Assembly (NCBI RefSeq): GCF_029873215.1
Contig: NZ_CP123620.1
Location: forward strand, 3,596,001 to 3,660,000
DNA length: 64,000 nt
Source of the DNA: Nocardioides sp. BP30
GTDB taxonomy: Bacteria; Actinomycetota; Actinomycetes; Propionibacteriales; Nocardioidaceae
Direction: 5' to 3'
Under the pieces are notes generated by a model. That model made no database searches and was not told where the DNA came from. It was given only the letters and a program-made list of their open reading frames with translations. Shown here in pieces: positions 24,628-49,335 of the stretch; the stretch's first letter is position 1; each line of letters starts with the position of its first letter. Both the position numbers and the translations under genes were made by a program.

Positions 24628-24672
24628 CTTCTGCCCGGCCCGGCCACCAGCCGACGCGGGACCGGCCTCGCG

Positions 24673-24746
24673 TGCGCCCGGTGAGACTCGAACTCACACT
24701 GGTGCGGACCTAAACCGCATGCCTCTGCCAATTGGGCTACGGGCGC
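24673..24746 (-). tRNA. tRNA with UAG anticodon and short variable loop (nominal Leu)
   Basis: A 74-base cloverleaf. The acceptor stem GCGCCCG/CGGGCGC is fully paired with A73; the D arm has a three-pair stem and a GG-containing loop; the anticodon stem is TGCGG/CCGCA with loop TTTAGGT, giving anticodon TAG followed by G37; the T arm is GTGAG/CTCAC with loop TTCGAGT. CCA is not encoded. Anticodon UAG reads CUA, a Leu codon, yet the variable loop is only five bases, whereas bacterial tRNA-Leu is type II with a long variable arm. The amino acid identity is therefore uncertain. Confidence 0.88.
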
Positions 24747-34673: not shown

Positions 34674-35315
34674 TCAGACCGCGCCATCGGGGAAGGCGAT
34701 GACGGACAGGAACCGGATCGGGACGTCGATGAGCTCCACCGGGCCGTGCGCACCCTCGCCGTCGAGCGTCAACGAGTCCCCTGCCGTGAGGCGGTAGACC
34801 TTGCGGCCGTGGCCGTAGTCGATGGTGCCCTCGAGCATGTAGATGAACTCGGTGCCCGGATGCTGGAAGAGCGGATAGGTCTCGCTGGTGCCGGTCAGGG
34901 TGACCAGCAGGCACTCGAGCCGCTTGTGCTCGCCGCGGAGTGCCCCCAGGAGCTGGTACTCGTGCCCGGCCTGGGTGCCGTTGCGCACGATCGGCGTACC
35001 GCGCCCGGCCCTGACGTAGGACGCCGGCCGCTCGGTGTCGGCGCCTCGAAACAGCGACGTGACGGGCACGTCGAGCCCCTTGGCGAGCAGCGCGAGGGTG
35101 CCCAGGCTGCACGAGGTCTGGGCGTTCTCCACCTTGGAGAGCATCGCCTTGGAGATGCCGATCTCGCCGGCCATGTCGGCCACCGAGAGACCACGCTGGA
35201 GGCGCAGCTCGCGCACGTTGCGGGCGATGGCCGCCTCGAGCTCCAGCTCCTCGATCGGCTCCTCGGCGCCGCGGCGACGCGCCGTCCCGGTATTGCGCAG
35301 CAGCTCATCCGCCAT
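34674..35315 (-). CDS. XRE-cupin regulator
   Basis: A 213-residue two-domain regulator. The helix-turn-helix is at about 33-85 (LSVADMAGEIGISKAMLSKVEN), and a C-terminal cupin at about 115-205 carries HPGTEFIYMLEGTIDYGHG and LTAGDSLTLDGEGAHGP. Cupins in such regulators usually sense a small metabolite. It lies 41 bases downstream of the allantoate-type hydrolase gene and may be co-transcribed with the nitrogen operon. A second XRE-cupin gene is at 44154. Confidence 0.9.
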   Translation of the reverse strand: MADELLRNTGTARRRGAEEPIEELELEAAIARNVRELRLQRGLSVADMAGEIGISKAMLSKVENAQTSCSLGTLALLAKGLDVPVTSLFRGADTERPASYVRAGRGTPIVRNGTQAGHEYQLLGALRGEHKRLECLLVTLTGTSETYPLFQHPGTEFIYMLEGTIDYGHGRKVYRLTAGDSLTLDGEGAHGPVELIDVPIRFLSVIAFPDGAV

Positions 35316-35356
35316 GGGGTGAACCTTACGGGACGGCGTTTCCCCGCAGTGGTCGC

Positions 35357-36577
35357 TCAGCGAGCGATCAGCACCTCCAACGCTGCCGCGAGCGCGGCGG
35401 CCCCGGCCTCGGCATCGTCGTCCTCGACATGCTCCCCGGGGGCATGGGAGACCCCCGTCGGGTTGCGGACGAACAGCATGGCGGTCTCGACGTGCCCGGT
35501 GAGCACGCCCGCGTCATGACCCGCCCCCGTGCCGAGCAACGGTGCATGACCCAGCGCGGCGGCGAGGTCGTCGCGCAAGCGGGAGTCGAAGTCGACGGTG
35601 GAACTGAAGGACTCCTCCGTCAGGGTGACGTCGCAGCCCTCCTCCTGCGCGACGACGGCAGCGGCCTGCCCGATCTGCTCCACCAGCGCACGCGTCACCA
35701 CGTCCTCCGGATGTCGTACGTCGACCCACACGTCGACCTGCGACGCGATCACGTTGGTGCCACCGGGGATCGGCTGCAGGCGTCCGACCGTCGCCCGAGC
35801 ACCGGGTGTCGCGCGCGCGAGCCGCTGCACCGCCACCACGGCCTGAGCCGCAGCCACCATCGGATCACGGCGCTCGGGCATCAGCGTGGTGCCCGCGTGG
35901 TTGCCCTCTCCGGTGAAGGAGAGCCGCCAGCGTCCGTGTCCGAGGATCGAGGAGGCGACCGCCACCGGTCGGTCGAGATCGACCAGCCCACGCCCCTGTT
36001 CGACGTGGAGCTCGACGAAGGCGCCGAGGCGGCCGAGCCTGTCGGCGTCGCGGCCCACGCGGGCCGGATCGAGGCCACCTGCCGCCATGGTCTCGGCGAA
36101 GGTCCGCCCGTCGGCGTCGGTGAGGGCCAAGGCGCGCTCGGGCCGGATCGCGCCGGTGAGCAGGCGCGAGCCGAGGCACGCCACACCGAAGCGCGAGCCC
36201 TCCTCCTCGGGGAAGACGGCGATCGCGCGCGGCCTGCCGGTGACGTCGCTCGCGGCCAGACGGTCGAAGGCGACGAGGGCGGAGGCGACGCCGAGCGGCC
36301 CGTCGTACGCGCCGCCGCCCGGCACGGAATCGAGGTGACTCCCGGTGACGACGGCGTCCGCGCCGGGGGTGCCGGCCCACGCCCAGATGATGCCGTTGGG
36401 GTCCGTCTCGACGTCCAGGCCGCGCTTGCCCGCATGAGCGAGGAACCACGCGCGCAGGTCGAGCTCGGCCGCCGAGTAGACCGGGCGCGTGTATCCGCCG
36501 CGGACCGCATCCCGCCCGAGGTCGGCGATCTCGGCCAGCAGGCCGGCAACCGTGTCGTTCGTCGAAGTGTCGTTCAT
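35357..36577 (-). CDS. Zn-dependent hydrolase, allantoate amidohydrolase / N-carbamoyl-amino-acid hydrolase type
   Basis: A 406-residue M20-fold amidohydrolase of the AllC/HydC group. Dinuclear-metal motifs are TGSHLDSVPGGGAYDG near residue 79 (His, Asp), PEEEGSRFG near 123 (Glu pair), ELHVEQG near 190 (His) and GAGHDAG near 352 (His). The group releases ammonia and CO2 from N-carbamoyl or ureido compounds. Its ATG overlaps the stop of the hutD-like gene (ATGA), so it is part of the same operon. Substrate unproven. Confidence 0.9.
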   Translation of the reverse strand: MNDTSTNDTVAGLLAEIADLGRDAVRGGYTRPVYSAAELDLRAWFLAHAGKRGLDVETDPNGIIWAWAGTPGADAVVTGSHLDSVPGGGAYDGPLGVASALVAFDRLAASDVTGRPRAIAVFPEEEGSRFGVACLGSRLLTGAIRPERALALTDADGRTFAETMAAGGLDPARVGRDADRLGRLGAFVELHVEQGRGLVDLDRPVAVASSILGHGRWRLSFTGEGNHAGTTLMPERRDPMVAAAQAVVAVQRLARATPGARATVGRLQPIPGGTNVIASQVDVWVDVRHPEDVVTRALVEQIGQAAAVVAQEEGCDVTLTEESFSSTVDFDSRLRDDLAAALGHAPLLGTGAGHDAGVLTGHVETAMLFVRNPTGVSHAPGEHVEDDDAEAGAAALAAALEVLIAR

Positions 36578-37014
36578 CGAAGTCCTTCCAGGTGGATGTC
36601 GGCGACGATCGGCCCGAGCAGGACATGGAGGTCCGGAGTGTCGGGAGCAGCCGATCGGGCCGGCCGGAGCACGACGCGCGGACTCCTGCCGAGGTCGCGG
36701 TGCGTCATCACGTTGAGCGCCCGTGTCGGCATGGCGAGCACCACCTCGACGGCAGCCTCACCGGCGAAGCGGTGCTGCTCGCCGGGCAGCAGATCGACGG
36801 CCGTCCCGTCCACGACGAGCCGCACCGCTCCCATCGGGACGAACAGCCGGTCCAGGCCCGGGAAGAGCGAGAACGGCGCGGAGTGGGTCAGGTCGGCCAC
36901 ACTCACCCGCCACCGCACCTCGCCGTCGGGACCGCGATCCATCGCGAGCTCCCGCGTGGTCCCGGCGCCGTTGGGCCACGGCACCGGGACCACCCCGGAC
37001 GGGTCGAGCGTCAC
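36574..37014 (-). CDS. HutD family protein
   Basis: A 146-residue cupin-like protein. PWPNGAGTTRELAMD near the N-terminus matches the PWxNGxGxTRE motif of HutD/Ves, and FSLFPGLDRLFVPMGAVRLVVDG follows. HutD is linked to histidine use in Pseudomonas as a modulator of hut expression. There is no other hut gene here, so its presence in a nitrogen operon suggests a general metabolite-sensing or buffering job. It is five bases downstream of the amine oxidase gene. Confidence 0.85.
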   Translation of the reverse strand: MTLDPSGVVPVPWPNGAGTTRELAMDRGPDGEVRWRVSVADLTHSAPFSLFPGLDRLFVPMGAVRLVVDGTAVDLLPGEQHRFAGEAAVEVVLAMPTRALNVMTHRDLGRSPRVVLRPARSAAPDTPDLHVLLGPIVADIHLEGLR

Positions 37015-37019
37015 GACGC

Positions 37020-38201
37020 TCAGCGCATCTCCCCCGCGCCGACGTACGGGTGCAGGCTGCTCAGCGGCTTGCCCTCGGCGAACCGCTCGAGGCGGAAGTC
37101 GGCCGCCGGGATGTCGGGGTCGGTGCTGTCGCCCTCCAGGACGAGATCCGCCACCAGGTCTCCGACGGCGGGGCTGATCTTGAAGCCGTGGCCGGCGAAT
37201 CCGGCGGCGAGGATCAGCCCGTCGAGACCACCGACCGGAGCGATGACGGGGTTCCAGTCGGGTGGTACGTCGTAGACCCCGGCGTAGGTGTGCGTGACCG
37301 AGGGATCCGGGAAGCCGGGGAAGCGATGGAGCAGCTTCTCGGCGTACCGCTCGATGCTGGCGTCGGCAGCCATGTTGGAGTAGGCGTCCGGGTCGGCGAA
37401 CTTCTTCTGGAAGTCGGCGTGGTCGCTGTTTCCGACCAGGAACTGGCCCGCGCCCTCCAGCCGGCAGTACTGCAGGCTGATCAGGTCGGACACCACGGGA
37501 AGGTCCGGAAGCGGCTCACCCGCGTCGACGATCAGCAGCTCCGAGCGGTAGGCCTCGACGGGGAAGTCGATGTCGAGGTCGGCGAGCAGCCGCTTGGACC
37601 ACCACCCACTCGCGACGACGACCAAGTCGGCCTCGACCGTCTCGCCGTCCGCCAGCTCGACACCGGTGACCTTGTCGCCCTCGGTCAGGATGCGCGCGAC
37701 CGGGGCGTTCTGCCGGATCCGGGCGCCGTGATCGCGAGCGACCCGGCCGAAGTGCAGCGCCAGCTGGGTGGCGTCCGCGAACCCGCCGCGCGGTTCGTAG
37801 GAGGCCAGCGCGACGTCGTCGACGTTCATCATCGGCCACAGCTCCTGGAGCCGCTCGGGATCGATGAGGTCGACCTCGATCCCCAGGCTCTGGTGCATCG
37901 CCGTGTTGGCCGTGAGCGGCTCGACGTTCTCCCGTCCCACGATGACCGTGTAGCCGACCTGGCGGAAGCCGACCTCCGCCCCGAGCTGCTCGAAGACCGG
38001 CAGGCTTCGCCACGACATCGCCGCGATCGACGGTACGCCGTAGTGCATCCGGACGATGCCCGACGACTTGCCGGTACCGCCGCTGGCGAGCTGGTGCCGC
38101 TCGAGCACGAGGACGTCGCTGATGCCGCGGGTGGCCAGCGCCCGCGCGATGGACAGCCCGATGAGTCCGCCGCCGATCACGACGGCCCTGCGGCTCGCCA
38201 T
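37020..38201 (-). CDS. FAD-dependent amine oxidase/dehydrogenase (DAO family, sarcosine oxidase beta-like)
   Basis: A 393-residue flavoprotein. The FAD motif GGGLIGLSIARALATRG is at about 9-25, SGGTGKSSGIVRMHYG near 42 is the sarcosine/dimethylglycine oxidase-type flavin site, and AGFAGHGFKISPAVGDLVAD near 337 is the C-terminal FAD motif. Enzymes of this family oxidise N-methyl or secondary amines. Its place behind three N-methylglutamate-synthase-like subunits suggests it oxidises an N-alkylglutamate. ATG overlaps the glutamate-synthase-like gene (ATGA). Confidence 0.87.
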   Translation of the reverse strand: MASRRAVVIGGGLIGLSIARALATRGISDVLVLERHQLASGGTGKSSGIVRMHYGVPSIAAMSWRSLPVFEQLGAEVGFRQVGYTVIVGRENVEPLTANTAMHQSLGIEVDLIDPERLQELWPMMNVDDVALASYEPRGGFADATQLALHFGRVARDHGARIRQNAPVARILTEGDKVTGVELADGETVEADLVVVASGWWSKRLLADLDIDFPVEAYRSELLIVDAGEPLPDLPVVSDLISLQYCRLEGAGQFLVGNSDHADFQKKFADPDAYSNMAADASIERYAEKLLHRFPGFPDPSVTHTYAGVYDVPPDWNPVIAPVGGLDGLILAAGFAGHGFKISPAVGDLVADLVLEGDSTDPDIPAADFRLERFAEGKPLSSLHPYVGAGEMR

Positions 38202-39577
38202 CACAGCCCACCGTTCAGGCCGGGGATCCACGTCGTGCCGGCGAGCGGAACGCGTGCCATCGCGGCCGCCTCGATAGAGATGGCGACCATGTCCTCGGGC
38301 TCGAGATGGTTGACGTGCGCCTTGCCGCAGGCTCGCGCGATGGTCTGCGCCTCCATGGTCAGCACGCGCAGGAAGTTCGCGATCCGGCGGCCGCCCTCGA
38401 CCGGGTCGAGGGCCTTCTGCAGCTCGGGGTCCTGGGTGGTGATGCCGGCCGGGTCCAGGCCGGCCTGGAACTGGTCGTAGAAGCCTGCCGCCGACCCGAG
38501 CCGCTCGTACGCGGCGCTGTGCTTCGGGTCGTTGTCGCCCAGGGCGATGAGCGCGGCGGTGCCGATCGCGACCGCATCCGCGCCGAGGGCGAGCGCCTTG
38601 GCGACGTCGGCGCCGTTGCGGATGCCGCCCGAGACGATCAGCTGCACGCCGTCGGGACGCTTGTGCACGCCGAGCTCCTGCAGCGCCTGCACGGCCTGCG
38701 GTACGGCGGCGAGCGTCGGGATGCCGACGTGCTCGATGAACACCTCCTGGGTCGCGGCGGTGCCGCCCTGCATGCCGTCGACCACCACGACGTCGGCGCC
38801 GGCATGCACGGCCAGCTTGACGTCGTAGTAGGTGCGCGAGGCACCGACCTTGACGTAGATCGGCTTCTCCCAGTCGGTGATCTCGCGCAGCTCGTTGATC
38901 TTGATGGTGAGGTCGTCCGGTCCGGTCCAGTCCGGGTGGCGCGAGGCGCTGCGCTGGTCGATGCCCTGGGGCAGGTCGCGCATGCCTGCGACGCGCTCGG
39001 AGACCTTCTGGCCGAGCAGCATGCCGCCCCCGCCCGGCTTCGCGCCCTGTCCGAGGACGATCTCGATCGCATCGGCCCGGCGCAGGTCGTCGGGGTTCAT
39101 GCCGTACCGGTTCGGGAGGTACTGGTAGACGAGGTGCTTGGAGTGGCCGCGCTCCTCCGGCGTCATGCCGCCGTCGCCGGTCGTGGTCGACGTACCGACC
39201 TCGGAGGCCCCCCGGCCGAGCGCCTCCTTCGCGTGGGCGCCCAGGGCGCCGAAGGACATGCCGGCGATCGTCACCGGAATGTCGAGGTGCAGCGGGAAGC
39301 GCGCGTTGCGTCCGCCGAGGACGACGTCGGTCCCGCACCTCTCGCGGTATCCCTCCAGCGGGTAGCGCGACATCGACGCCCCCAGGAACAGCAGGTCGTC
39401 GAAGTGCGGCAGCGCGCGCTTGGCGCCCCACCCGCGGATGTCGTAGATGCCGGTCTGCGCGGCGCGCTGGATGGCGGCGATGGTGGGCCGGTCGAACGTG
39501 GCCGACTCACGCAGGCCCCAGTCACGGCCCTCGGCGGACGAGCGTCCGCCCTCGTTGGTTGAGCTTGTCGAAACCAT
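38201..39577 (-). CDS. glxD: FMN-binding glutamate synthase-like subunit (MgsC/GlxD)
   Basis: A 458-residue FMN/Fe-S domain of glutamate synthase type. Visible core is MSFGALGAHAKEALGRGASEVGTSTTTGDGGM, GQGAKPGGGGMLLG, and the glycine-rich phosphate site DGMQGGTAATQ with VSGGIRNGADVAKALALGADAVAIG. Such proteins, with split GATase and GXGXG partners, form N-methylglutamate synthase (MgsABC) or the related Glx proteins. ATG 39577 is just ten bases after the GXGXG gene. Confidence 0.88.
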   Translation of the reverse strand: MVSTSSTNEGGRSSAEGRDWGLRESATFDRPTIAAIQRAAQTGIYDIRGWGAKRALPHFDDLLFLGASMSRYPLEGYRERCGTDVVLGGRNARFPLHLDIPVTIAGMSFGALGAHAKEALGRGASEVGTSTTTGDGGMTPEERGHSKHLVYQYLPNRYGMNPDDLRRADAIEIVLGQGAKPGGGGMLLGQKVSERVAGMRDLPQGIDQRSASRHPDWTGPDDLTIKINELREITDWEKPIYVKVGASRTYYDVKLAVHAGADVVVVDGMQGGTAATQEVFIEHVGIPTLAAVPQAVQALQELGVHKRPDGVQLIVSGGIRNGADVAKALALGADAVAIGTAALIALGDNDPKHSAAYERLGSAAGFYDQFQAGLDPAGITTQDPELQKALDPVEGGRRIANFLRVLTMEAQTIARACGKAHVNHLEPEDMVAISIEAAAMARVPLAGTTWIPGLNGGL

Positions 39578-39587
39578 GACTCCCCGA

Positions 39588-40262
39588 TCAGTACGTGTTG
39601 TCGGCGTGGAAGTGGTACAGCGTCCGGGCCGAGCCGTAGCGCTTGTAGGAGGCCGGGTCATCGTCCTCGTAGCCGGCGGCCTTGAGCAGGCCGGTCAGCT
39701 CCTCGAGGTGCTCGGGACCCATCTCCTTCTCGACGCAGTCGGCACCGAGCGAGCTCACCGAGCCGCGGACGTAGAGGCGCGCCTCGTAGATGGAGTCGCC
39801 GAGCGCGTCGCCGGCATCACCGCGTACGACGAGCCGCCCGCGCTGCGCCATGAACGCACTCATGTGGCCGACGGAGCCTCCGACCACGATGTCGAGCCCC
39901 TTCAGCGAGATCCCGCAACGGGCGGCGGCGTCACCGTCGATGACGAGCAGGCCCCCGCGGCCGGTGGCGCCGGCGGACTGGGACGCGTTGCCGGTCACGT
40001 GGACGACGCCGCTCATCATGTTCTCCGCCACGCCCTGCCCGGCATTGCCCTCGATGGTGACCTCGGCCTGCTGGCTCATGGCGGCGGCGTAGTAGCCGCA
40101 GTGCCCCTGGATCGTCACCTTCACCGGGGCGTTCAGCCCGACGGCGACGTTGTGTGCTCCGCGCGGGTTCTGCACCAGGATCTCGCCCTCGAGGCCGTCG
40201 GCGTGCAGGGCGGCGTTGACCTCGCGCAGCGGGGTGAGGGCCAGGTCGAAGGCGGCGGTCAT
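39588..40262 (-). CDS. glxC: GXGXG-motif glutamate synthase-like subunit (MgsB/GlxC)
   Basis: A 224-residue beta-helix subunit. Repeated G-x-x-G-x-x-x-G turns (VTIEGNAGQGVAENM, VHVTGNASQSAGATGRGG, LDIVVGGSVGHMSAFMAQRG, LVVRGDAGDALGDSIYEAR) are the GXGXG domain of glutamate synthase, here as a separate chain. In the full complex it positions the GATase and the FMN domain. Its start overlaps the GATase gene stop by four bases, so translation is coupled. Confidence 0.9.
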   Translation of the reverse strand: MTAAFDLALTPLREVNAALHADGLEGEILVQNPRGAHNVAVGLNAPVKVTIQGHCGYYAAAMSQQAEVTIEGNAGQGVAENMMSGVVHVTGNASQSAGATGRGGLLVIDGDAAARCGISLKGLDIVVGGSVGHMSAFMAQRGRLVVRGDAGDALGDSIYEARLYVRGSVSSLGADCVEKEMGPEHLEELTGLLKAAGYEDDDPASYKRYGSARTLYHFHADNTY

Positions 40263-41182
40263 ACGAGGACCTCCTCGCGGTCGGCGGAGCGGGTCCAGGC
40301 ATAGATGACCTCGGGCTCCGGCTCCCAGATCCGGGCCTGGTCGATGCCGGGCAGGTGCGCGAGAGCGCGGAACTCGCTGGCCATCGCGACCCAGTCATCG
40401 GTCTCGGCGATGACGGCCGGCTTGCAGGCGATGGCATCGCGGACGACCGCGAAGGAGTCCCGGTTGGAGACGAGCAGCGTGTAGAACCCGTCGAACGTCG
40501 TGGTCAGGTCGGTGAGTGCCGTCTCGACATCGGCCCCCTCGGCGAGCTCGTGGGCCACGAAGCGGGCGCCCACCTCGGTGTCGTTCTCGGAGTCGAACTC
40601 CACCCCCGCCGCCCTGAGGTCGCGACGGATGGTGGCGTGGTTGGAGAACGAGCCGTTGTGCACCAGGCACTGGTCGGGACCCACGGCGTAGGGATGAGCA
40701 CCGCCGGGAGTCACCGCCGACTCCGTCGCCATCCGGGTGTGCCCCACACCCTGCCAGCCCTGGGCGCGCTCCAGCCCCCAGGCCTCGGCGAGGACGCGCG
40801 GGCTCCCGACGCCCTTGAGGACCGCGAGATCCTCGCCGAAGCCGCCGACCAGCACGTGCGGGTAGAGCGCCTTGGCGGCCGCGAGCAGTGCCTGGGCGTC
40901 GACGTGGCCGTGCGCGAGCACCGAGTTGTCGACCGCTGTGGCGGTGACCTCGGTGCCGAGCGCGCCGCTCAGCGCACGGGCCGCCTCCTCGGCAGGAACG
41001 TCAAGGTCGATGAGCGAGATCGAGCTCTGTCCGGCGGGCGACCAGCCGGGATCGCCGTACACAGCGATGCCGGCGGAGTCCGACCCCCGGTCCTCCATCT
41101 CGCAGAGCATGCCGGTGAGGAGCTCACCGAGGCGCGGATAGAGCTCAGGGTTGCGCAGGTGCAACCCGACGATGCCACACAT
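40259..41182 (-). CDS. glxB: Class II glutamine amidotransferase-like subunit (MgsA/GlxB)
   Basis: A 307-residue N-terminal-nucleophile amidotransferase. The chain starts MCGIVGL, so Cys2 is the nucleophile; GVGHTRMATESAVTPGGAHPY near 146 and LVHNGSFSNHATIRRDL near 175 are glutamine-site motifs. In N-methylglutamate synthase this chain takes the gamma-glutamyl amide. An AAAGGA ribosome site lies eight bases upstream. The 44-base gap from the ligase gene suggests the same transcript. Confidence 0.9.
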   Translation of the reverse strand: MCGIVGLHLRNPELYPRLGELLTGMLCEMEDRGSDSAGIAVYGDPGWSPAGQSSISLIDLDVPAEEAARALSGALGTEVTATAVDNSVLAHGHVDAQALLAAAKALYPHVLVGGFGEDLAVLKGVGSPRVLAEAWGLERAQGWQGVGHTRMATESAVTPGGAHPYAVGPDQCLVHNGSFSNHATIRRDLRAAGVEFDSENDTEVGARFVAHELAEGADVETALTDLTTTFDGFYTLLVSNRDSFAVVRDAIACKPAVIAETDDWVAMASEFRALAHLPGIDQARIWEPEPEVIYAWTRSADREEVLV

Positions 41183-41226
41183 GTGGGGTGTCCTTTCGAA
41201 GGTCGTTGAGAGGCTCGGGAGCCAGG

Positions 41227-42567
41227 TCAGAAGGCGGTGAGGTAGCGGTCGTGCTCCCAGGACCCGACGTCGGAGTGCCAGGTGAAGAACTCCTCGCGCT
41301 TGAGCCGGCCGAAGTAGGCGGCGACGCTGCCGATGTCCGTGGCGTCCCAGGACCCCAGGGCGGCGTCGAGCGCTCCGGTGATCACCGGATCGGCGTCGAA
41401 CGCGTCGACCGCGTGGACCAGTGTGAGCGGCAGCGACGCGCCCGGACCGCTGCCGACGGCACCGGGATCGAGGCTGCGCTTGACCCCGTCGAGACCGGCC
41501 GCGAGTGCCGCGGCGACGGCGAGGTAGGGGTTCGCCGAGCCGTCACCGCCGCGGAGCTCGAGTCGCTGGTCGTCGGGGACGCGGATGTAGTGGGTGCGGT
41601 CGTTGCCACCCCATGTCGGCGTACGGGGTGCCCAGCTCGCGCCGGAGGCGGTGGCGACGGCACCGGTCCGCTTGTAGCTGTTGACGGTCGGTGCGATCAC
41701 CGCCTGCAGCGCGCAGGCATGCTCCAGGATGCCCGCCAGGAAGGAGTACGCCGTGCCCGATAGGCCCAACCCCTTGGCGTCCTCCGCCTCGTCGGCGGGG
41801 AAGACCGGGGCTCCGCCGCTGGTCAGCGAGACGTGCAGGTGCAGGCCCGAGCCGGTCTTGTGGGCGAACGGCTTGGGCATGAACGTCGCGATCATGCCGC
41901 GTTCGGCCGCCATCACGTTGAGCAGGTAGCGCAGGGTGATGACCCGGTCACAGGTGGTGAGGGCCTCGGCGTACTTGAAGTTCTGCTCGAACTGTCCCGA
42001 GCCGTCCTCGTGGTCGTTGGCGTAGTTGCCCCAGCCGAGCTGGTTCATCGCGCTGCTGATCGCCGTGAGGTGGTCGTACATGCGCGTCACCCCGCGGGCG
42101 TCGTAACAGGGTTGGGCGGCGACGTCCTGGTCGTCGGCGGGCACGAGCTCACCCGACGCGTTCCGCTTGAGCAGGAAGTACTCGACCTCTGCGCCCACCC
42201 ACGGCTCGAAACCTGCGTCCGCCGAGCGCTGCACCATCGCCTTGAGGATGTTGCGCGGAGCGTAGGGCCACGGCCTGCCCTCGACGTACGGATCGCAGTG
42301 CACGATCGCGAGCCCCTCCTTCACGAACGGAATCGGGGCGAAGGAGGCGGGATCGGGGATCACCATCAGGTCCGGGTCCTTGGGCTCCTGCCCCATCGCG
42401 CCGACGGCGTAGCCGGCGAAGCCGACTCCGTCGGCGGCCAGCTCGTCCACCGCCTCCACCGGCACCAGCTTCGCGCACGGTTTGCCATGGAGATCGACGA
42501 ACAGGGCGAGGATGAACCTCGTCCCGGTCTGCTCCGCCAAAGCGGCGAGCTCACTGCGCTGCGTCAT
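41227..42567 (-). CDS. glnT: Glutamine synthetase-like ligase (GlnT / gamma-glutamylmethylamide synthetase type)
   Basis: A 446-residue glutamine-synthetase-fold ligase. Metal- and ATP-site motifs are visible: GAEVEYFLL near 123, DHEDGSGQFEQNF near 185, HKTGSGLHLHVSL near 236, NSYKRTGAVATASGASWAPRT near 300 and RLELRGGDGSANPYLAVAA near 333. The GmaS/GlnT branch joins glutamate to methylamine or ammonia. It is the first gene of the long leftward nitrogen operon, next to Glx-like subunits. AGGAGG lies eight bases before the ATG. Confidence 0.9.
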   Translation of the reverse strand: MTQRSELAALAEQTGTRFILALFVDLHGKPCAKLVPVEAVDELAADGVGFAGYAVGAMGQEPKDPDLMVIPDPASFAPIPFVKEGLAIVHCDPYVEGRPWPYAPRNILKAMVQRSADAGFEPWVGAEVEYFLLKRNASGELVPADDQDVAAQPCYDARGVTRMYDHLTAISSAMNQLGWGNYANDHEDGSGQFEQNFKYAEALTTCDRVITLRYLLNVMAAERGMIATFMPKPFAHKTGSGLHLHVSLTSGGAPVFPADEAEDAKGLGLSGTAYSFLAGILEHACALQAVIAPTVNSYKRTGAVATASGASWAPRTPTWGGNDRTHYIRVPDDQRLELRGGDGSANPYLAVAAALAAGLDGVKRSLDPGAVGSGPGASLPLTLVHAVDAFDADPVITGALDAALGSWDATDIGSVAAYFGRLKREEFFTWHSDVGSWEHDRYLTAF

Positions 42568-42612
42568 CGGTCATGCCTCCTGGTGTCCACTGTAGTGAAT
42601 CACTGTTCACGA

Positions 42613-42760
42613 CCAGTAGACGGACCGATTGTTTCCAAAGTGTCACCGAGCAGATAAATCCGCGTCTCGCCGAGGGATTCGGCGGGGCGATCCGCCGCGG
42701 CTCGTTCATCGAGCCGTTACGGCATCGGACCATCTACGCAAAGGAAACATCGTCTACTGG
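42613..42760. repeat. Inverted repeat flanking the glnT-amt divergent promoter
   Basis: CCAGTAGACG then GTTTCC (42613-42636) recurs as GGAAAC then CGTCTACTGG (42743-42760) in opposite orientation. The two copies point at each other and flank the divergent start regions, as expected for a shared regulator acting on both genes. Confidence 0.6.
42631..42646 (-). promoter_or_regulatory. GlnR-like box upstream of glnT/amt
   Basis: On the minus strand GTGAC-6-GAAAC, matching the GTnAC-6-GAAAC half-site pair of the actinobacterial nitrogen regulator GlnR. A second GAAAC is found in the inverted copy at 42744-42748. Confidence 0.5.
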
Positions 42761-42805
42761 TGATCAACGGGTCCGGAGCCTGGACCCACGTCGCAAGGAG
42801 ATGAC

Positions 42806-44050
42806 ATGGACACAGGAACCACAGCCTTCATGCTGTGCTGCATCATCGGGCTCACGATCATGATTCCGGGCCTGGCGCTGTTCTACGGCGGCATGGTGAG
42901 CGTCAAGAGCTCGATCAACATGATGATGATGACCTACGGCGCCGTCGCGATCGTGGGCGTCCTCTGGGTGCTCTTCGGCTTCTCGATGACCTTCGGCGAC
43001 TCCCACGGCGGCTTCGTCGGCAGTGTCACCGAGTTCGCCGGGATGAAGCATCTGCTCGATCCGATGACGACGATCGACGGCCTGCCGGTGAGCCTCTTCG
43101 CGCTGTTCCAGGCGCTGTTCGCCGCGCTCACCGTCGCCATCGTGTCGGGCGCCGCCGCCGACCGGATGAAGTTCTCCGCATGGATGACCTTCGCCACCCT
43201 GTGGGCGGTGCTCGTCTACTTCCCGGTCGCGCACTGGGTCTTCGCCTTCGACGGCGTCGTGACCAAGAACGCGACCGGCGGCTGGATCGCCAACAAGCTC
43301 CACGCGGTCGACTTCGCCGGCGGCACCGCCGTCCACATCAACGCGGGCGCCGCGGCGCTCGCCGTGGCGATCGTGCTCGGCAAGTCGGCGACGTGGAGCT
43401 CGCGCAAGCCGCACAACGTCCCGCTGACCCTGCTCGGCGCCGGCCTCCTGTGGGCAGGCTGGTACGCGTTCAACGGTGGCTCCGCGCTGACGGCGGGGAA
43501 CTCGGCGGCGATCGTGATGGTGACCTCGTTCACCGCGACCTGCTCCGCCACCCTCGGCTGGCTGGCGGTGGAGAAGTTCAAGGACGGTCACGTGACAGGC
43601 ATCGGTGCGGCCTCGGGCGCCATCACCGGCCTGGTCGCGATCACGCCGGCGTGCGGCGCCGTCACCCCCATCGGCGCCCTCTTCGTCGGCCTGATCCCCG
43701 CGATGATCTGCCCGTTCGCGATCGGGCTCAAGGAGCGGTTCGGGTACGACGATTCGACCGACGTCGTGGGCGTCCACCTCGTCGGCGGCATCATCGGCAC
43801 CCTGCTGATCGGGTTCTTCGCCAGCTCCGGCATGCCCAACGGCGTGGACGGCCTGTTCTACGGCGGCAGCATCAGCCTGCTGCTCAAGCAGGCCGCGGCC
43901 GCCGGCTCCGTGCTGGCCTACTCCTTCGTGGTCGCGCTCGTCATCGCCTGGGCGATCAAGCGGACCATCGGCATCCGGATCTCGCCCGAGGAGGAGGAGG
44001 ACGGCATCGACGCCATCCTGCACCGCGATCCGGCGTACGAGCTCGTCTGA
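42806..44050 (+). CDS. amt: Ammonium transporter (Amt)
   Basis: A 414-residue membrane protein with 11 helices, moving ammonium into the cell. GGTAVHINAGAAAL (helix 5 His) and GVHLVGGIIGTLL (helix 10 His) give the twin-His pore, and MIPGLALFYGGMVSVKSSINMMMM is the N-terminal Amt signature. The C-tail is short and acidic. ATG 42806 is used rather than 42801 because AAGGAG lies five bases before it. No glnK/glnD follows. Divergent from glnT over a GlnR-like box. Confidence 0.95.
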   Translation: MDTGTTAFMLCCIIGLTIMIPGLALFYGGMVSVKSSINMMMMTYGAVAIVGVLWVLFGFSMTFGDSHGGFVGSVTEFAGMKHLLDPMTTIDGLPVSLFALFQALFAALTVAIVSGAAADRMKFSAWMTFATLWAVLVYFPVAHWVFAFDGVVTKNATGGWIANKLHAVDFAGGTAVHINAGAAALAVAIVLGKSATWSSRKPHNVPLTLLGAGLLWAGWYAFNGGSALTAGNSAAIVMVTSFTATCSATLGWLAVEKFKDGHVTGIGAASGAITGLVAITPACGAVTPIGALFVGLIPAMICPFAIGLKERFGYDDSTDVVGVHLVGGIIGTLLIGFFASSGMPNGVDGLFYGGSISLLLKQAAAAGSVLAYSFVVALVIAWAIKRTIGIRISPEEEEDGIDAILHRDPAYELV

Positions 44051-44085
44051 TCGCACCGGCCCTGACCGAGGAAGCACCATCCGGC

Positions 44086-44148
44086 CGTTCGGGCGCCCAC
44101 CGGACGTGGTCGCGGCATCCCGCACCACGACGCTGGCGCGCCCGAACG
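44086..44148. terminator. Large hairpin between amt and the XRE-cupin gene
   Basis: An 11-base perfect stem (CGTTCGGGCGC and GCGCCCGAACG) encloses a second hairpin (CGTGGT and ACCACG with a GCGG/CCGC extension). It lies between convergent genes and would terminate both. Confidence 0.7.
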
Positions 44149-44153
44149 TGTCG

Positions 44154-44723
44154 TCAGAAGATCGGCGGGCTCATCACCCAGATCGAGGTGACCGGCGCCT
44201 GGCCGAGGTTCTGGTAGCGGTGCGGAAGCTTCGGGTCGAGCATCAACGAGTCGCCGGTACCGAGCGTGTAGCTCTCCCCGTCCACCCAGACCTCCAGCTC
44301 GCCGGCCAGGATGATCACGCACTCCTCGTCGGCCGCATGGGTGTACGGCTCCTCACCGGACCCTTCCCCCGGACCGATCGCGGCATGGATCACCTGGAGC
44401 GTCTTCGCCGAGGGCGGCGTGAGCATCAGCTCCTCGTGCGTGCCCTCCGTGTGCACCAGACGTCGCCCCTGCCCGGCGCGGATCACCCGCGTCGGGCTGT
44501 CGCCTCCGACGAAGAGCGAGCCGACGTTGACGCCGATCGCGCCGGCGATCCGAGTCAGGGACGCCATCGACGGATGCGCGACGCCTCGCTCGACCTGTGA
44601 CACGAAGCTCTCCGAGACGTCGGCCGCATCGGCGACCTGACGCAGGGTGATGTTCGCGCGACGCCGGATCTCCCGGAGGCGCCTGCCGAGCGATCCGTCC
44701 TCAGCGCTGTTGCGCGTGGCCAT
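44154..44723 (-). CDS. XRE-cupin regulator
   Basis: A 189-residue regulator: helix-turn-helix at about 14-66 (ITLRQVADAADVSESFVSQVERG) and cupin at about 100-185 (HAADEECVIILAGELEVWVDGESYTLGTGDSLMLDPKLPH split across two strands). It is divergent from the flavin monooxygenase gene; the 146 bases between them hold palindromes that could be its operators. With the XRE-cupin at 34674 it brackets the nitrogen island. Ligand unknown. Confidence 0.9.
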   Translation of the reverse strand: MATRNSAEDGSLGRRLREIRRRANITLRQVADAADVSESFVSQVERGVAHPSMASLTRIAGAIGVNVGSLFVGGDSPTRVIRAGQGRRLVHTEGTHEELMLTPPSAKTLQVIHAAIGPGEGSGEEPYTHAADEECVIILAGELEVWVDGESYTLGTGDSLMLDPKLPHRYQNLGQAPVTSIWVMSPPIF

Positions 44724-44765
44724 CAGGCTCCCCTCTCTCGAGGCCTCACTCTAGCGCCACGACCG

Positions 44766-44791
44766 CTGAAGAAACTTAAACGTAACTTCAG
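44766..44791. promoter_or_regulatory. Inverted repeat CTGAAG-14-CTTCAG
   Basis: Exact six-base arms in the divergent region between the XRE-cupin and monooxygenase genes. The left arm recurs in the palindrome at 44837, so it may be part of one operator family. Confidence 0.45.
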
Positions 44792-44836
44792 AAAGCCTTG
44801 TGAGCCGCACCACTCCTGACCTAATGTCCCTCGCAA

Positions 44837-44853
44837 CTGAAGTAGTACTACAG
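44837..44853. promoter_or_regulatory. Palindrome around GTAGTACTAC
   Basis: CTGAAGTAGTACTACAG contains a perfect 10-base palindrome (44842-44851) with CTG/CAG flanks, six bases before the GGGAG ribosome site of the monooxygenase gene. Position fits a repressor operator. Confidence 0.5.
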
Positions 44854-44869
44854 ATTCTGGGAGTTGGTT

Positions 44870-46027
44870 GTGACTAGCCGAGGACATGTCGAGATCGCCG
44901 GAGCAGGCCTCGCCGGCCTGACTGCCGCCACCGCCCTGGCCCAGCGTGGCTGGTCGGTCCGCGTGCACGAGCGCGGCAGCGCGCTGCGGGAGATCGGTGC
45001 CGGCATCTACCTCTGGGAGAACGCGCTGCGCGCGCTGGAGGACATCGGCGCCTACGACGATGCCACCCGCAACGCCGAGCACGTACGCAACCCGGAGCTG
45101 CGGGATCACCGCAACCGCGTGCTGCAGCGGGAGTGGCTGCGGGAGGGCAGGCTCTGCACGGTGGCGCGCCGGGAGCTCCATGCGGCCCTGGCCACCGCGG
45201 CGGAGAAGGCGGGCGTCGAGGTCGTCACCGGATCACCCGTGGACGGCGCCACGCCGGAGGGACGGCTGCGGCTGCTCGACGGCACCGAGTACGAGGCGGA
45301 TCTGGTGATCGGCGCCGACGGCGTCTTCTCCCGGGTCCGCGAGACCCTGGGTCTGACCAAGCAGATCACCAACCTCGGCGACGGCGGCGGACGCCACATG
45401 ATCAAGCGGACCGAGGACGACCCGGTCGACGGGGTGATCGAGGAGTGGAACGCCGGACGTCGCATCGGGATCGTGCCGTGCTCGCCGGACCAGACCTACA
45501 TCTTCTTGTGCTGCCCCGCCGACGACGCCGCGGGCGTCCGGCAGCAGCCCTTCGAGCGGCAGACCTGGATCGACTCCTTCCCCGAGTTCCGCTCCCAGCT
45601 CGAGCGCATCCCCGACGATCCCGAAGGACGCTGGGCCTCCTTCACCGACGTGGTGGTGTCGAAGTGGTCGCGTGGACGCGCGGCACTGATCGGCGACGCC
45701 GCCCACGCCATGTCACCCAACCTCGGCCAGGCGGCCTGCGTGGCGATGATGAACAGCGTCGCCCTCGCCCAGGCGCTCGACGCGCACGACATCGACACCG
45801 CGCTGGAGGTCTGGGAACGCAGCGAGCGACCCGTCATCGACCGGGTGCAGCGCTACTCCCGCTACTACGGCACCATCGGCACGCGTTGGCCGCAGGGACT
45901 CCTCGACGTCCGCTCCGCACTCGTCTGGGGCCTGGGTGCCTCGAAGGCCGCGCAGCGGCGGGTCCAGTCCGCTGCCCTCTACTTCCCGAGCCTGGACGCC
46001 GGCCTGGCACCGGCGAGCAGCCGATGA
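44870..46027 (+). CDS. FAD-dependent aromatic monooxygenase, MHPCO-like (ring-opening type)
   Basis: A 385-residue class A flavin monooxygenase. FAD motif AGAGLAGLTAATALAQRGW is at about 9-27, IGAGIYLWENALRALEDIG near 45-63, DLVIGADGVFSRVRE near 145, and ALIGDAAHAMSPNLGQAA near 270. IGAGIYLWENALRALE and HERGSALREIGAGIYLW closely resemble 2-methyl-3-hydroxypyridine-5-carboxylate oxygenase (recalled sequence), which hydroxylates and opens a pyridine ring. GTG 44870 is used rather than TTG 44864 because GGGAG lies six bases upstream. ATGA overlap with the next gene. Confidence 0.88.
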   Translation: MTSRGHVEIAGAGLAGLTAATALAQRGWSVRVHERGSALREIGAGIYLWENALRALEDIGAYDDATRNAEHVRNPELRDHRNRVLQREWLREGRLCTVARRELHAALATAAEKAGVEVVTGSPVDGATPEGRLRLLDGTEYEADLVIGADGVFSRVRETLGLTKQITNLGDGGGRHMIKRTEDDPVDGVIEEWNAGRRIGIVPCSPDQTYIFLCCPADDAAGVRQQPFERQTWIDSFPEFRSQLERIPDDPEGRWASFTDVVVSKWSRGRAALIGDAAHAMSPNLGQAACVAMMNSVALAQALDAHDIDTALEVWERSERPVIDRVQRYSRYYGTIGTRWPQGLLDVRSALVWGLGASKAAQRRVQSAALYFPSLDAGLAPASSR

Positions 46028-47661
46028 GCGCCTCGTCCAGGCCCTTCGTCGTCACGGGTCGCATCGCGACGGTGGCGGGCGCGGCGGACGCGCGGGCGAT
46101 GCTCGTCCGCGAGGGACGGGTCGCCGAGGTCGGCGACAGCCGGATCGCCGACCAGGCCGCCGACGCAGGCATCGAGGTGCACTCCTTCGGCGAGCGCCTC
46201 ATCGTGCCGGGCTTCGTCGATCCGCACATCCACCTGCGCCACCTCGCCACCGGCCGCGGCCGCGGCGTCGACTGCCGGTTCCCGCACTGCGTGAGCATCG
46301 CCGACGTGCTCGACGCCTTGCGCGACGGGCTGGCGAACGTGTCGGCGGGCGATTGGCTGATCGGCTACGGCAACCTGTTCTTCGACCAGAAGATCGCCGA
46401 TCGACGGGTCCCGACACGCGCCGAGCTCGACCAGGTGAGCGACAGGGTGCCGATCGTGCTGCACATGGGCGGCCACTCCTCGGTGCTCAACACCCCGGCC
46501 CTGCGCCTCGCCGGAGTCGAACGGTTCCTGTCCGGTGCCGCAGGCGGCTGGGGTGCCCCGATCGTCGACGTGGACGAGCACGGCGAGCCCACCGGTCTGG
46601 TCGCCGAGATCGACCCGATGCTCCCCATCCCCGAACCCGACACCGCCGAGACCGAGCAGTACGTCGCACAGACCTACGCCGAGCTGTTCACCCGCTACGG
46701 CGTCACCACCATCGGTGAGATGGTCGAGCGCCTCGACACCGCCGACCTGCTCTCCGGGCTGATCGGCTCAGGGCGGATGCCTGCTCGCGCCGTGCTGTAC
46801 CTCATGGTGCCGGCCGCGCTGCCGCTCCACGACGCGGTGGAGTGGGCCAGCGGACACCGCACGATCTCGGACAGGGTCTCGGTCGCCGGCCTGAAGATGT
46901 TCGCGGACGGCGGGTACTCCTCGCGCAACGCGGCCAGCAAGACGCCGTACGCCGTCGACCACGCACCGCACCCGGGCTACCACGGCGTCCTGAACCTGAC
47001 CTATCCGTCGCTGCGGACCGCGCTGGAGGCCACCCGGGCGGCGGACCTCCAGCTCGCCGTCCACACCAACGGGACGGCGGCGCAGGAGGAGGTCCTCACC
47101 GCCGTCCTCGGCGCCGGTGACCCGATGGGCCATCCCGCCGTCCGGATCGAGCACCTGGGCAACGTGCTCGCCGATCCCGCCGACATCGCCACCTGGCGTC
47201 GCGCCGGCGTACGACCGGTCCTGCAACCCGCCTTCCTGCACAACTTCGTCGGCGACTTCGTCCCGATGCTGCTCGGAGACGCGGGCACCCGAGGACGCCT
47301 GCCGCTGCGGTCGATCCTCGACGGCGGCGTCATCCCGGCCGGGAGCTCCGATGTCGCGCTCGGGGCCGAGGACCAGCAGTCGAACCCGTTGTTCGGGATC
47401 TGGTGCCTGCTGGCCCGGCGCAGCTACTGGCAGCGCCACATCGAGCCGTCCGAGGCCATCACCTTCAGCGAGGCCCTCCGGCTCTTCACCCTCGAAGGTG
47501 CCCGAGCGCTCGGTCTCGCCGACGAGATCGGCTCGCTCGAGCCGGGCAAGCGCGCCGACTTCGTGGTGTTCGACCGCGATCCCCGCGCCCATGCCGACGA
47601 CCTGCTGCGCACGTCCGTGGACGCCGTCTACCTTGACGGCGCCCCACTCCCGACCAGGTAG
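46024..47661 (+). CDS. Amidohydrolase family protein (Amidohydrolase_3)
   Basis: A 545-residue metal hydrolase. Site motifs are DPHIHLRHLATG near residue 66, GLKMFADGGYSSRNA near 291, LAVHTNGTAAQEEVL near 343, IEHLGNVLADPA near 374 and AGSSDVALGAEDQQSN near 440. It follows the monooxygenase with a four-base overlap, so it probably hydrolyses the amide or enamide released by ring opening, as in the pyridoxine pathway. Same length as, but diverged from, the amidohydrolase at 18470. Confidence 0.88.
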   Translation: MSASSRPFVVTGRIATVAGAADARAMLVREGRVAEVGDSRIADQAADAGIEVHSFGERLIVPGFVDPHIHLRHLATGRGRGVDCRFPHCVSIADVLDALRDGLANVSAGDWLIGYGNLFFDQKIADRRVPTRAELDQVSDRVPIVLHMGGHSSVLNTPALRLAGVERFLSGAAGGWGAPIVDVDEHGEPTGLVAEIDPMLPIPEPDTAETEQYVAQTYAELFTRYGVTTIGEMVERLDTADLLSGLIGSGRMPARAVLYLMVPAALPLHDAVEWASGHRTISDRVSVAGLKMFADGGYSSRNAASKTPYAVDHAPHPGYHGVLNLTYPSLRTALEATRAADLQLAVHTNGTAAQEEVLTAVLGAGDPMGHPAVRIEHLGNVLADPADIATWRRAGVRPVLQPAFLHNFVGDFVPMLLGDAGTRGRLPLRSILDGGVIPAGSSDVALGAEDQQSNPLFGIWCLLARRSYWQRHIEPSEAITFSEALRLFTLEGARALGLADEIGSLEPGKRADFVVFDRDPRAHADDLLRTSVDAVYLDGAPLPTR

Positions 47662-47685
47662 CGGACCGGAGCTCAAGCCGGTCCG
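47662..47685. terminator. Hairpin between amidohydrolase and permease genes
   Basis: CGGACCGG and CCGGTCCG with an eight-base loop, starting at the stop codon of the amidohydrolase gene. No U-tract, so it may attenuate rather than stop transcription into the permease. Confidence 0.5.
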
Positions 47686-47768
47686 GAGCCGCTCCCAGCA
47701 CCCTGTCTTCCCCGCACGACAACGCTGTCGCACCCCTACCGCACGACCCGACGAGAAAGGCACTTTCG

Positions 47769-49190
47769 ATGACGGCACCCGCACAGCGCTCCGGGGCGCA
47801 GATCCAAGGAGTGGAGCAACGCTCCATCGACTACATCCCGCCGGAGGAGCGCCACGGCGTGGTCTGGCACCAAGGACCGTTCTGGATGACCGGTGGCATG
47901 GTGCTCAGCTCGCTGCTCGTCGGCTTCATCGGACCCGGCCTGGGCCTGGGCGTCGGCTGGTCGTTGCTCGGGGTGACCGCCGGGATGGCGTTCGGCACCC
48001 TGTTCATGGCGCTGCACGCCAACCAGGGTCCCCGCCTCGGACTGCCCCAGATGATCCAGTCGCGGGCGCAGTTCGGCAGCCGCGGCGCGATGTTCCCCAT
48101 CGCCGTCGCCGTCTTCATCTACATCGGCTACAACGTCTTCCAGCTCATCTTCGCCGGCGAGGCGATGCACGTGGCGCTGCCCGGCCAGAAGGTCTGGTAC
48201 GTCGTCTTCGCCGTGGTCGCCTTCGTGCTGGCCACCGTCGGGCACGACCTCCTCCACACCTTCCAGCGGTGGTCCAGCTATCTGATGCTCGTCATCTTCG
48301 GTCTGCTGACCATCGTGACGATCGTGCACTTCCCCGGCTCCGGTGTGTCACCCCAGGTGTCGGGATGGTCGTTCAAGGCCTTCCTGGTCCAGTTCGCCGC
48401 GGCAGGCGGCTACCAGATCAGCTACGCGATCTACGTCTCCGACTACAGCCGCTACCTGCCCGAGGACGCCCCCGCCGGCAGGCTCATCGGCTGGACGTTC
48501 GGCGGTGCGATGGTGGGAGCGGGGTGGATGGGCTGCCTGGGCGTCCTGCTGGGCAGCTACGTCCCGAACCCGGACGCGATCGGCGCCATCCACCAGGTCG
48601 GCAACTACCTGTTCCCGGGTTTCGGCGTCATCGCCGCGCTCGGGACGCTGCCCGCGCTCATCGGGACCTCGGGGGTCAATGCGTACGGCGCCATGCTCAC
48701 CGGCGCGACCATCGTCGACGGGGTCCGCCAGATCAAGCCGACCGTGCGGACCCGCGTCACGGGCCTGCTCGTGGTCAGCATCATCGGTGCTGCGATCGCG
48801 CTCTTCATGCCGGAGGACTACCTGGACAGCTTCAACACGTTCCTCGCGATCATGGTCTACCTGCTGGTTCCGTGGACAGCGGTCAACCTGATCGACTTCT
48901 ACGTCGTCCGTCGCCAGCACTACAGCATCGCCGACATCGTCGATCCGAACGGCAGGTACGGCCGCTGGTCGATGCGCGGCCTGACCGCCTACTTCGCGGG
49001 CTTCGTCGCGATGATCCCGTTCTTCTCCCTCAGCTTCTACGTCGGCCCGATCACCAAGGCCCTCGGCGGTGCGGACTTCTCCTTCGTCGTCGGGCTGCTC
49101 GTCTCCGCCGGCGCCTACTGGCTGCTCTCCCGAACCCTTCACGAGCGCGCGGGCACGGAGTCGGCCACCTCCCCCGTGGTCACCGGCTGA
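47769..49190 (+). CDS. NCS1 family permease (purine/cytosine/hydantoin type)
   Basis: A 473-residue carrier with about 12 helices. GPFWMTGGMVLSSLLVGFIGPGLG, YQISYAIYVSDYSRYLP near 219 and AMLTGATIVDGVRQIKPTVRTR near 300 are typical of nucleobase-cation-symport-1 carriers, which import nucleobases, allantoin, hydantoins or vitamin B6-like heterocycles. It ends the rightward unit of the nitrogen island. Substrate unknown, but it fits uptake of a nitrogen heterocycle for the monooxygenase. Confidence 0.9.
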   Translation: MTAPAQRSGAQIQGVEQRSIDYIPPEERHGVVWHQGPFWMTGGMVLSSLLVGFIGPGLGLGVGWSLLGVTAGMAFGTLFMALHANQGPRLGLPQMIQSRAQFGSRGAMFPIAVAVFIYIGYNVFQLIFAGEAMHVALPGQKVWYVVFAVVAFVLATVGHDLLHTFQRWSSYLMLVIFGLLTIVTIVHFPGSGVSPQVSGWSFKAFLVQFAAAGGYQISYAIYVSDYSRYLPEDAPAGRLIGWTFGGAMVGAGWMGCLGVLLGSYVPNPDAIGAIHQVGNYLFPGFGVIAALGTLPALIGTSGVNAYGAMLTGATIVDGVRQIKPTVRTRVTGLLVVSIIGAAIALFMPEDYLDSFNTFLAIMVYLLVPWTAVNLIDFYVVRRQHYSIADIVDPNGRYGRWSMRGLTAYFAGFVAMIPFFSLSFYVGPITKALGGADFSFVVGLLVSAGAYWLLSRTLHERAGTESATSPVVTG

Positions 49191-49210
49191 CGCACCGCGC
49201 GAACTCCATC

Positions 49211-49248
49211 GCTCGCCGGGCCGACTCCCGGTTCCCCCACCGGCGAGC
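49211..49248. terminator. Hairpin terminator, first of two
   Basis: GCTCGCCGG and CCGGCGAGC, a nine-base stem, directly after the permease gene and before a second stem at 49258. Confidence 0.6.
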
Positions 49249-49257
49249 GAGAAGGGG

Positions 49258-49297
49258 ACAGCCCCCGATGCCGCAATGTCGCGGTGTCGGGGGCTGT
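49258..49297. terminator. Bidirectional hairpin terminator, second of two
   Basis: An 11-base stem (ACAGCCCCCGA and TCGGGGGCTGT) with an inner CCGC/GCGG stem lies between the convergent permease and lpd genes. Confidence 0.75.
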
Positions 49298-49335
49298 TCC
49301 GTGCACTGTTCGCGCAGGTCACCGACCTGCGAGCG

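Follow-up and report, generated by a model that had tools for sequence, protein, structure and literature searches.

We analysed a window of 64,000 nucleotides of the Nocardioides sp. BP30 genome (contig NZ_CP123620.1, positions 3,596,001 to 3,660,000). It holds a regulator, an FAD-dependent monooxygenase (FMO), a hydrolase and an importer, which together form a recurring, uncharacterised module that probably takes up and opens a small N-heterocycle. The FMO, which is related to MHPCO but falls in a clade of its own, lies at 44870..46027 on the + strand (FAD_binding_3, 8.8e-27). Its open reading frame (ORF) ends at 46027 and may start at 44864 or at 44870; the GTG at 44870, preceded by GGGAG, appears the likelier start. 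The FMO gene shares four bases (ATGA, 46024-46027) with the gene of a metal-dependent amidohydrolase (46024..47661, + strand; Amidohydro_3, 5.7e-65), and after a gap of 107 nt an NCS1-type permease follows (47769..49190, + strand; Transp_cyt_pur, 6e-45). Thus, coordinates and Pfam matches confirm the gene order proposed by a first-pass annotation of the sequence, in which a flavin monooxygenase overlaps by four bases with an Amidohydrolase_3 gene and precedes an NCS1 permease. An XRE-cupin (PuuR-like) regulator is encoded divergently from the oxygenase (44154..44723, - strand; HTH_31/HTH_3 and Cupin_2), and a palindrome, listed without strand, is located at 44837..44853. Pattern scans detected no terminator-like pattern in 44000-49400 and no sigma-70 match.

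To define the distribution of these genes, genomes were scanned using the window FMO aligned with 19 homologues, chosen from 120 listed (1479 found), and this returned 79 loci. With eight plasmid loci and two from whole genomes (L001, L002) the set comprised 89 loci, whose neighbouring genes were searched by tblastn. All locus counts are taken from tblastn, as self-trained gene calls gave wrong-strand shadow ORFs in several high-GC loci. The window's own copy (L001) and four loci without a half-length FMO match (L084, L085, L088, L089) were left out of the groups, and 42, 7 and 35 loci remained. Within the subclade of the window FMO, the amidohydrolase was present in 16 of the 16 other loci, at most 1.6 kb from the FMO in 15 of them and 8 kb away in L019. 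All 16 also contained an importer (NCS1 in three, a CUT2-type ABC binding protein in 13) and a homologue of the XRE-cupin regulator. At the 35 loci with other FMOs, we found no amidohydrolase, no NCS1 permease, no regulator and no CUT2 binding protein of at least 28% identity (0/35 each); related CUT2-type ATPase or permease genes occurred in nine of them, and a binding protein of 26% identity in L067. The linkage of FMO, amidohydrolase, importer and regulator is real and above chance (16/16 versus 0/35). Among seven further loci outside the tree described below, six carried the amidohydrolase.

The arrangement of the genes varies from overlapping to divergent across modules. On three plasmids, two from Rhodococcus and one from Arthrobacter, the order is FMO, TorT-like binding protein, amidohydrolase, ABC ATPase, permease and regulator. 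An SSADH-like aldehyde dehydrogenase lies directly downstream in 5 of the 16 subclade loci; the two of these five proteins that were scanned reached 531 and 557 bits, under the SSADH cut-off of 646. Searches of the same 16 loci revealed no Amidohydro_1 protein, FAA hydrolase, alpha/beta-hydrolase of the searched types or quinolone (HOD-type) dioxygenase, and a single LigB match (L003), about 10 kb off among other catabolic genes. In Planosporangium thailandense (L083, 9168-15098), regulator, NCS1 permease, amidohydrolase and aldehyde dehydrogenase accompany a short FMO match covering the first 128 residues. In Planosporangium flavigriseum TBRC 198, three contigs (L014, L020, L029) hold FMO modules, and these belong to different subclades.

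The resemblance of the FMO to MHPCO, the pyridine-ring-opening oxygenase named in the first-pass annotation, was borne out: MHPCO is its closest solved structure (E 6e-63; 128 of 327 aligned residues identical), followed by 6-hydroxynicotinate 3-monooxygenase (4e-26). Among the best 25 of 64 NCBIfam matches no cut-off was reached (top score 181 bits versus 365). For a maximum-likelihood tree, rows with a stop or with fewer than 300 residues in the extracted stretch were removed, which left 82 rows and, after removal of the own copy L001, 81. L012, L013, L028, L040, L072 and L083 therefore stand outside the tree; five of these six carry the amidohydrolase, and the L040 contig ends inside the FMO. 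The window FMO was placed in a clade of 44 rows (support 100/99), which is tied neither to MHPCO nor to any known group without ring-opening activity. Firm clustering with such a group, which would have spoken against the annotation, was thus not observed. FMOs with kpi-like neighbours (see below) formed a 14-row clade (100/100). Several long branches, that of MHPCO included, were flagged by the tool. We then inspected MHPCO positions to which we assign presumed roles (Arg181, Arg211, Tyr223, Tyr82 and Tyr270). All 17 subclade rows keep Arg181, Arg211 and Tyr223. Since Arg181 and Tyr223 are also kept in all three quinolone-locus enzymes, only Arg211, kept in one of these three, is discriminating. 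The FMO is present in 2 of 58 genomes of the lineage, the window's included, and the other copy is 41% identical.

With 221 bits against PF07969 (cut-off 29.7), the amidohydrolase is a member of this family. Among solved structures, two uncharacterised hydrolases match it best (2.5e-18 and 3e-17), followed by guanine deaminase (5e-9), and the genome contains no second match at E<=1e-10. Residues H68, H70, K291, H347, H377 and D443, which from superfamily knowledge we take to be the metal ligands, do not vary across the 19 sequences aligned. The permease belongs to PF02133 (154.3 bits, cut-off 23.5) and scored 109.7 against TIGR00800, under the cut-off of 353.1. It had no match among solved structures. 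Permease homologues in related modules are 62-75% identical, and the genome holds one other match at E<=1e-10 (31% identity).

The regulator reached 62 bits against the PuuR model, under the cut-off of 211. The palindrome, CTGAAGTAGTACTACAG, has a single mismatch to the consensus CTGAAGTNNNACTTCAG; no other site in the 4.28 Mb genome has one mismatch or fewer. Sites with at most two mismatches were found in the window and in L011, L015, L019, L040 and L083, with a divergent regulator in 6 of 6 (L040 ends before any NCS1 gene could show), and of 17 ABC-type loci, six have a site with at most three mismatches ahead of the operon. The palindrome is therefore a probable operator of the module. A wider regulon was considered and rejected: the genome has 109 sites with at most three mismatches per strand, versus 182 for the reversed control, and because such sites are rarer than in the control we claim none.

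A sister subclade of nine proteobacterial rows provided further clues. Pro82 and Phe225 occur in 9 of 9 sister rows and 17 of 17 rows of the window subclade, and Tyr54 in 9/9 and 14/17; these residues are not shared by the other subclade of the 44 rows. The sister and window subclades differ at positions 272 and 294. In 8 of 9 sister loci, two alpha/beta-hydrolases are found instead of the amidohydrolase, together with ProX, ProV and ProW genes. L044-L051 combine the FMO, two alpha/beta-hydrolases and a ProXVW importer, with a LysR-type regulator in six of these eight loci. The L046 binding protein passed the ProX model (332.6, cut-off 215); of three tryptophans that we presume to form the ProX ligand cage, two are kept and the third is Ile.

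The best reading of these data, which we hold with moderate confidence, is a regulated uptake-and-cleavage module in which an MHPCO-like ring opening is followed by hydrolysis. The NCS1 permease would import the substrate, and the FMO would add one oxygen beside the ring nitrogen and open the ring, MHPCO-style, to an N-acyl enamide. The amidohydrolase would then hydrolyse the N-acyl bond. This would release ammonia or methylamine as the amine, together with a small acid and a semialdehyde, the last of which could be oxidised by an aldehyde dehydrogenase. The XRE-cupin protein would repress the operon via the palindrome until substrate is present. As substrate we propose a small N-heterocycle that is hydroxylated, with a zwitterionic pyridine-type compound as the likeliest kind; it possibly bears an N-methyl group. 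Gene content, recurrent linkage, clade, conserved pocket residues and palindrome are computed results, whereas reactions, substrate class and regulatory logic are deductions. This reading is favoured by the position of MHPCO as closest solved structure, by the retained Arg211 and by the SSADH-like aldehyde dehydrogenases downstream. The linkage held despite the reshuffling of gene order, FMO and amidohydrolase distances are correlated (r 0.78, n 29, a value reached by none of 2000 permutations), and the alpha/beta-hydrolases of the sister subclade match the fold of the second enzyme of the B6 pathway. Since none of the 16 subclade loci has kpi-type, FAA, alpha/beta or quinolone partners, FMO and amidohydrolase would perform opening and cleavage themselves, unless these steps are encoded elsewhere. 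Together with the different hydrolase family, the absence of kpi-type partners favours ring opening by the FMO and subsequent hydrolysis, without proving it.

Several observations weigh against this reading. Not every one of the 16 loci counts as an independent case, since L003/L005 and L023/L024 are nearly identical pairs and L014/L020 come from one strain. The correlation of FMO and amidohydrolase distances is inflated by shared descent. The palindrome is lacking in 11 of 17 ABC-type loci and before L030-L032, the three scanned NCS1 loci from the other subclade of the 44 rows, and the operator consensus is circular, being derived from the loci on which it is scored. MHPCO itself and three quinolone-locus enzymes occupy a separate 13-row branch of the same tree (98/90), so that the FMO does not group with MHPCO. 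In addition, MHPCO Tyr82 is replaced by Pro and Tyr270 by Phe in 17 of 17 subclade rows. Relatives of MHPCO exist that only hydroxylate (KnmB1, PMC9838390; KpiA, PMC7356986), and the amidohydrolase-fold protein KpiC opens a pyridine ring oxidatively (PMC7356986). Because the FMO clade lies apart from the MHPCO, quinolone and kpi-like types, ring opening by the window enzyme is something we infer. Thus, the uptake and ring-opening module predicted by the first-pass annotation is supported in part: conservation with importer and regulator stood, while the FMO fell outside the MHPCO branch. Overall, the N-heterocycle module is real and conserved, and its regulation is probable.

The main alternative divides the work as in the kpi locus: the FMO would only hydroxylate a pyridone-type ring, the amidohydrolase-fold protein would open it with O2 and the NCS1 permease would import the substrate. 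Proteins of matching kinds are described in Arthrobacter sp. IN13, which degrades 4-hydroxypyridine: the FMO KpiA, which hydroxylates only and yields 3,4-dihydroxypyridine, KpiC (475 aa), which opens the ring with O2, and the NCS1-like permease KpiP (PMC7356986). The presence of kpi-like genes next to a related FMO clade also fits: loci of the 14-row clade contain Amidohydro_1 or LigB in 9 of 13 cases, FAA hydrolase in 8 of 13 and RidA in 8 of 13. Metal ligands cannot separate a hydrolase from a KpiC-like dioxygenase, and by eye the kpi-like protein of L056 also keeps an HxH pair. However, the window enzyme is an Amidohydro_3 protein that aligned in short BLASTP stretches only with the Amidohydro_1 protein of L056, which was compared in place of KpiC itself. 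Moreover, the window FMO lies outside the kpi-like clade, and in 16 of 16 loci no FAA hydrolase or alpha/beta-hydrolase of the searched types accompanies the pair. We regard a kpi-like division as rather unlikely, though as a serious contender. L056, L058-L061, L064, L067 and L070, from Streptomyces, Geodermatophilus, Mycolicibacterium and proteobacteria, are probable kpi-type 4-hydroxypyridine pathways (Amidohydro_1 or LigB, FAA hydrolase, RidA).

Alternatively, the amidohydrolase could act first or elsewhere and strip an acyl or amide side chain from the imported compound, after which the FMO would hydroxylate the freed ring without opening it. There is a precedent in karnamicin biosynthesis, where the metal-dependent amidohydrolase KnmE takes a leucine off a pyridine compound beside an MHPCO-like hydroxylase (PMC9838390), and an enzyme of this fold could act on either a ring product or a side chain. 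But the modules hold importers and some aldehyde dehydrogenases rather than biosynthetic genes, and a catabolic route would be incomplete without ring opening, which makes this alternative distinctly improbable. Least probable is that the pair fills orphan steps of B6 degradation pathway II, with the FMO as 5-pyridoxate oxygenase and the amidohydrolase cleaving the N-acetyl enamide product. Pathway II, which is known from Arthrobacter Cr-7 and Pseudomonas IA and ends in 2-(hydroxymethyl)-4-oxobutanoate (PMC3538738), is matched by modules in Arthrobacter (L004, L023, L024, L038), by the lack of a gene assignment in a literature search at the level of titles and abstract starts, and by the retained Arg211 next to replaced Tyr82 and Tyr270, but no recurring pyridoxine-oxidising gene was seen in the modules (no model search was aimed at such genes) and the betaine importers of the sister subclade are no particular fit.

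Returning to ring opening by the FMO followed by hydrolysis, ProXVW in the sister subclade and the adjoining block A weakly suggest an N-methylated substrate. The module may degrade an N-methylated, betaine-like hydroxypyridine, with the FMO opening the quaternary ring, the amidohydrolase freeing methylamine and block A assimilating it; we consider this extension doubtful. Block A (34674..44050, listed without strand) comprises a regulator-like ORF, an M20 amidohydrolase, a DAO oxidase, MgsC/B/A-like proteins, a type III glutamine synthetase and Amt. It is possibly a methylamine (N-methylglutamate) pathway, loosely linked to the module. On a Streptomyces plasmid, homologues of block A adjoin S-(hydroxymethyl)mycothiol dehydrogenase, and on an Acinetobacter plasmid their neighbours are sarcosine-oxidase-type genes. 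Of all loci searched, only the window and Microbacterium Root53 (L022) have block A next to the module; two relatives carry block A without the FMO. An MgsC homologue was detected in two of the window's 55 relatives; of nine genomes from the proteobacterial subclade five had one, in one case with 52% identity. Among actinobacteria, 9 of 17 genomes with window-type modules had one versus 4 of 19 others. This co-occurrence was not robust: P was 0.05 at first and 0.06 once G074, which was in both sets, had been taken out; when the five carriers of other-subclade modules still left among the controls (MgsC 0/5) were removed, it rose to 0.20, which lowered our confidence in an N-methylated substrate. 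Block A has a single DAO protein where other bacteria use a multi-subunit dehydrogenase in the N-methylglutamate pathway.

Module and block A together form an apparent genomic island of about 14.7 kb (34.6-49.3 kb). The ORFs flanking it are adjacent in three of four relatives (L115-L117), with 58 to 1277 bp between match ends, so the segment was gained here or lost there; in the fourth relative (L114) the left flanking ORF was not found within the stretch examined. We observed no sharp change of GC content at the island ends, and they share no direct word of more than 10 bases. The one tRNA of the window is located at 24672-24746.

If the reading of ring opening and hydrolysis is correct, a function could be assigned to a recurring soil module with a 44-row FMO clade related to MHPCO and the quinolone enzymes. 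It would suggest that in oxygenase-hydrolase ring opening both the hydrolase (amidohydrolase or alpha/beta) and the importer (NCS1, CUT2 ABC, ProXVW) can be exchanged, and would offer a testable handle on nitrogen recycling from cyclic and N-methylated compounds by soil bacteria. Should the N-methylated variant hold, a route from N-methylpyridinium compounds to methylamine would run via a single-component flavoenzyme and a metal-dependent amidohydrolase. Its outline would be common to actinobacteria, with import by NCS1 or ABC systems, and to proteobacteria, with the betaine importer ProXVW.

We found no characterised member, and a literature search, conducted mostly at listing level, yielded no cluster of this gene make-up besides kpi; a paper on vitamin B2 catabolism had no bearing on the module. 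The kpi system and the window module both combine an FAD_binding_3 monooxygenase, an amidohydrolase-superfamily protein and an NCS1-like permease. However, KpiC is an Amidohydro_1 ring-opening dioxygenase whereas the window protein belongs to Amidohydro_3, and kpi adds an alpha/beta-hydrolase and an FAA hydrolase, neither of which was found at the window module (PMC7356986). FMOs with kpi-like neighbours, assigned by gene content rather than from KpiA's own sequence, fall in another clade than the window's. The karnamicin cluster shares an MHPCO-like FMO and a metal-dependent amidohydrolase with the window but is biosynthetic; its KnmB1, 45% identical to MHPCO, hydroxylates without ring opening (PMC9838390). 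FMOs of plasmid loci with a quinolone 3-monooxygenase and 2,4-dioxygenase (aqdC1, meqE) are 39-42% identical to the window FMO, but their partner is a cofactor-independent dioxygenase, they belong to another clade and Arg211 is lost in two of three. Their function is presumed from the neighbouring genes and general knowledge. A parallel in logic is pathway I of B6 degradation in Mesorhizobium loti, where MHPCO is followed by (E)-2-(acetamidomethylene)succinate hydrolase. The same succession of oxygenase and hydrolase is proposed for the window module, yet with a hydrolase of a different family, as the annotation had recognised: the window enzyme is an Amidohydro_3 protein, whereas the second enzyme of the B6 pathway has an alpha/beta-hydrolase fold (solved structure 3kxp).

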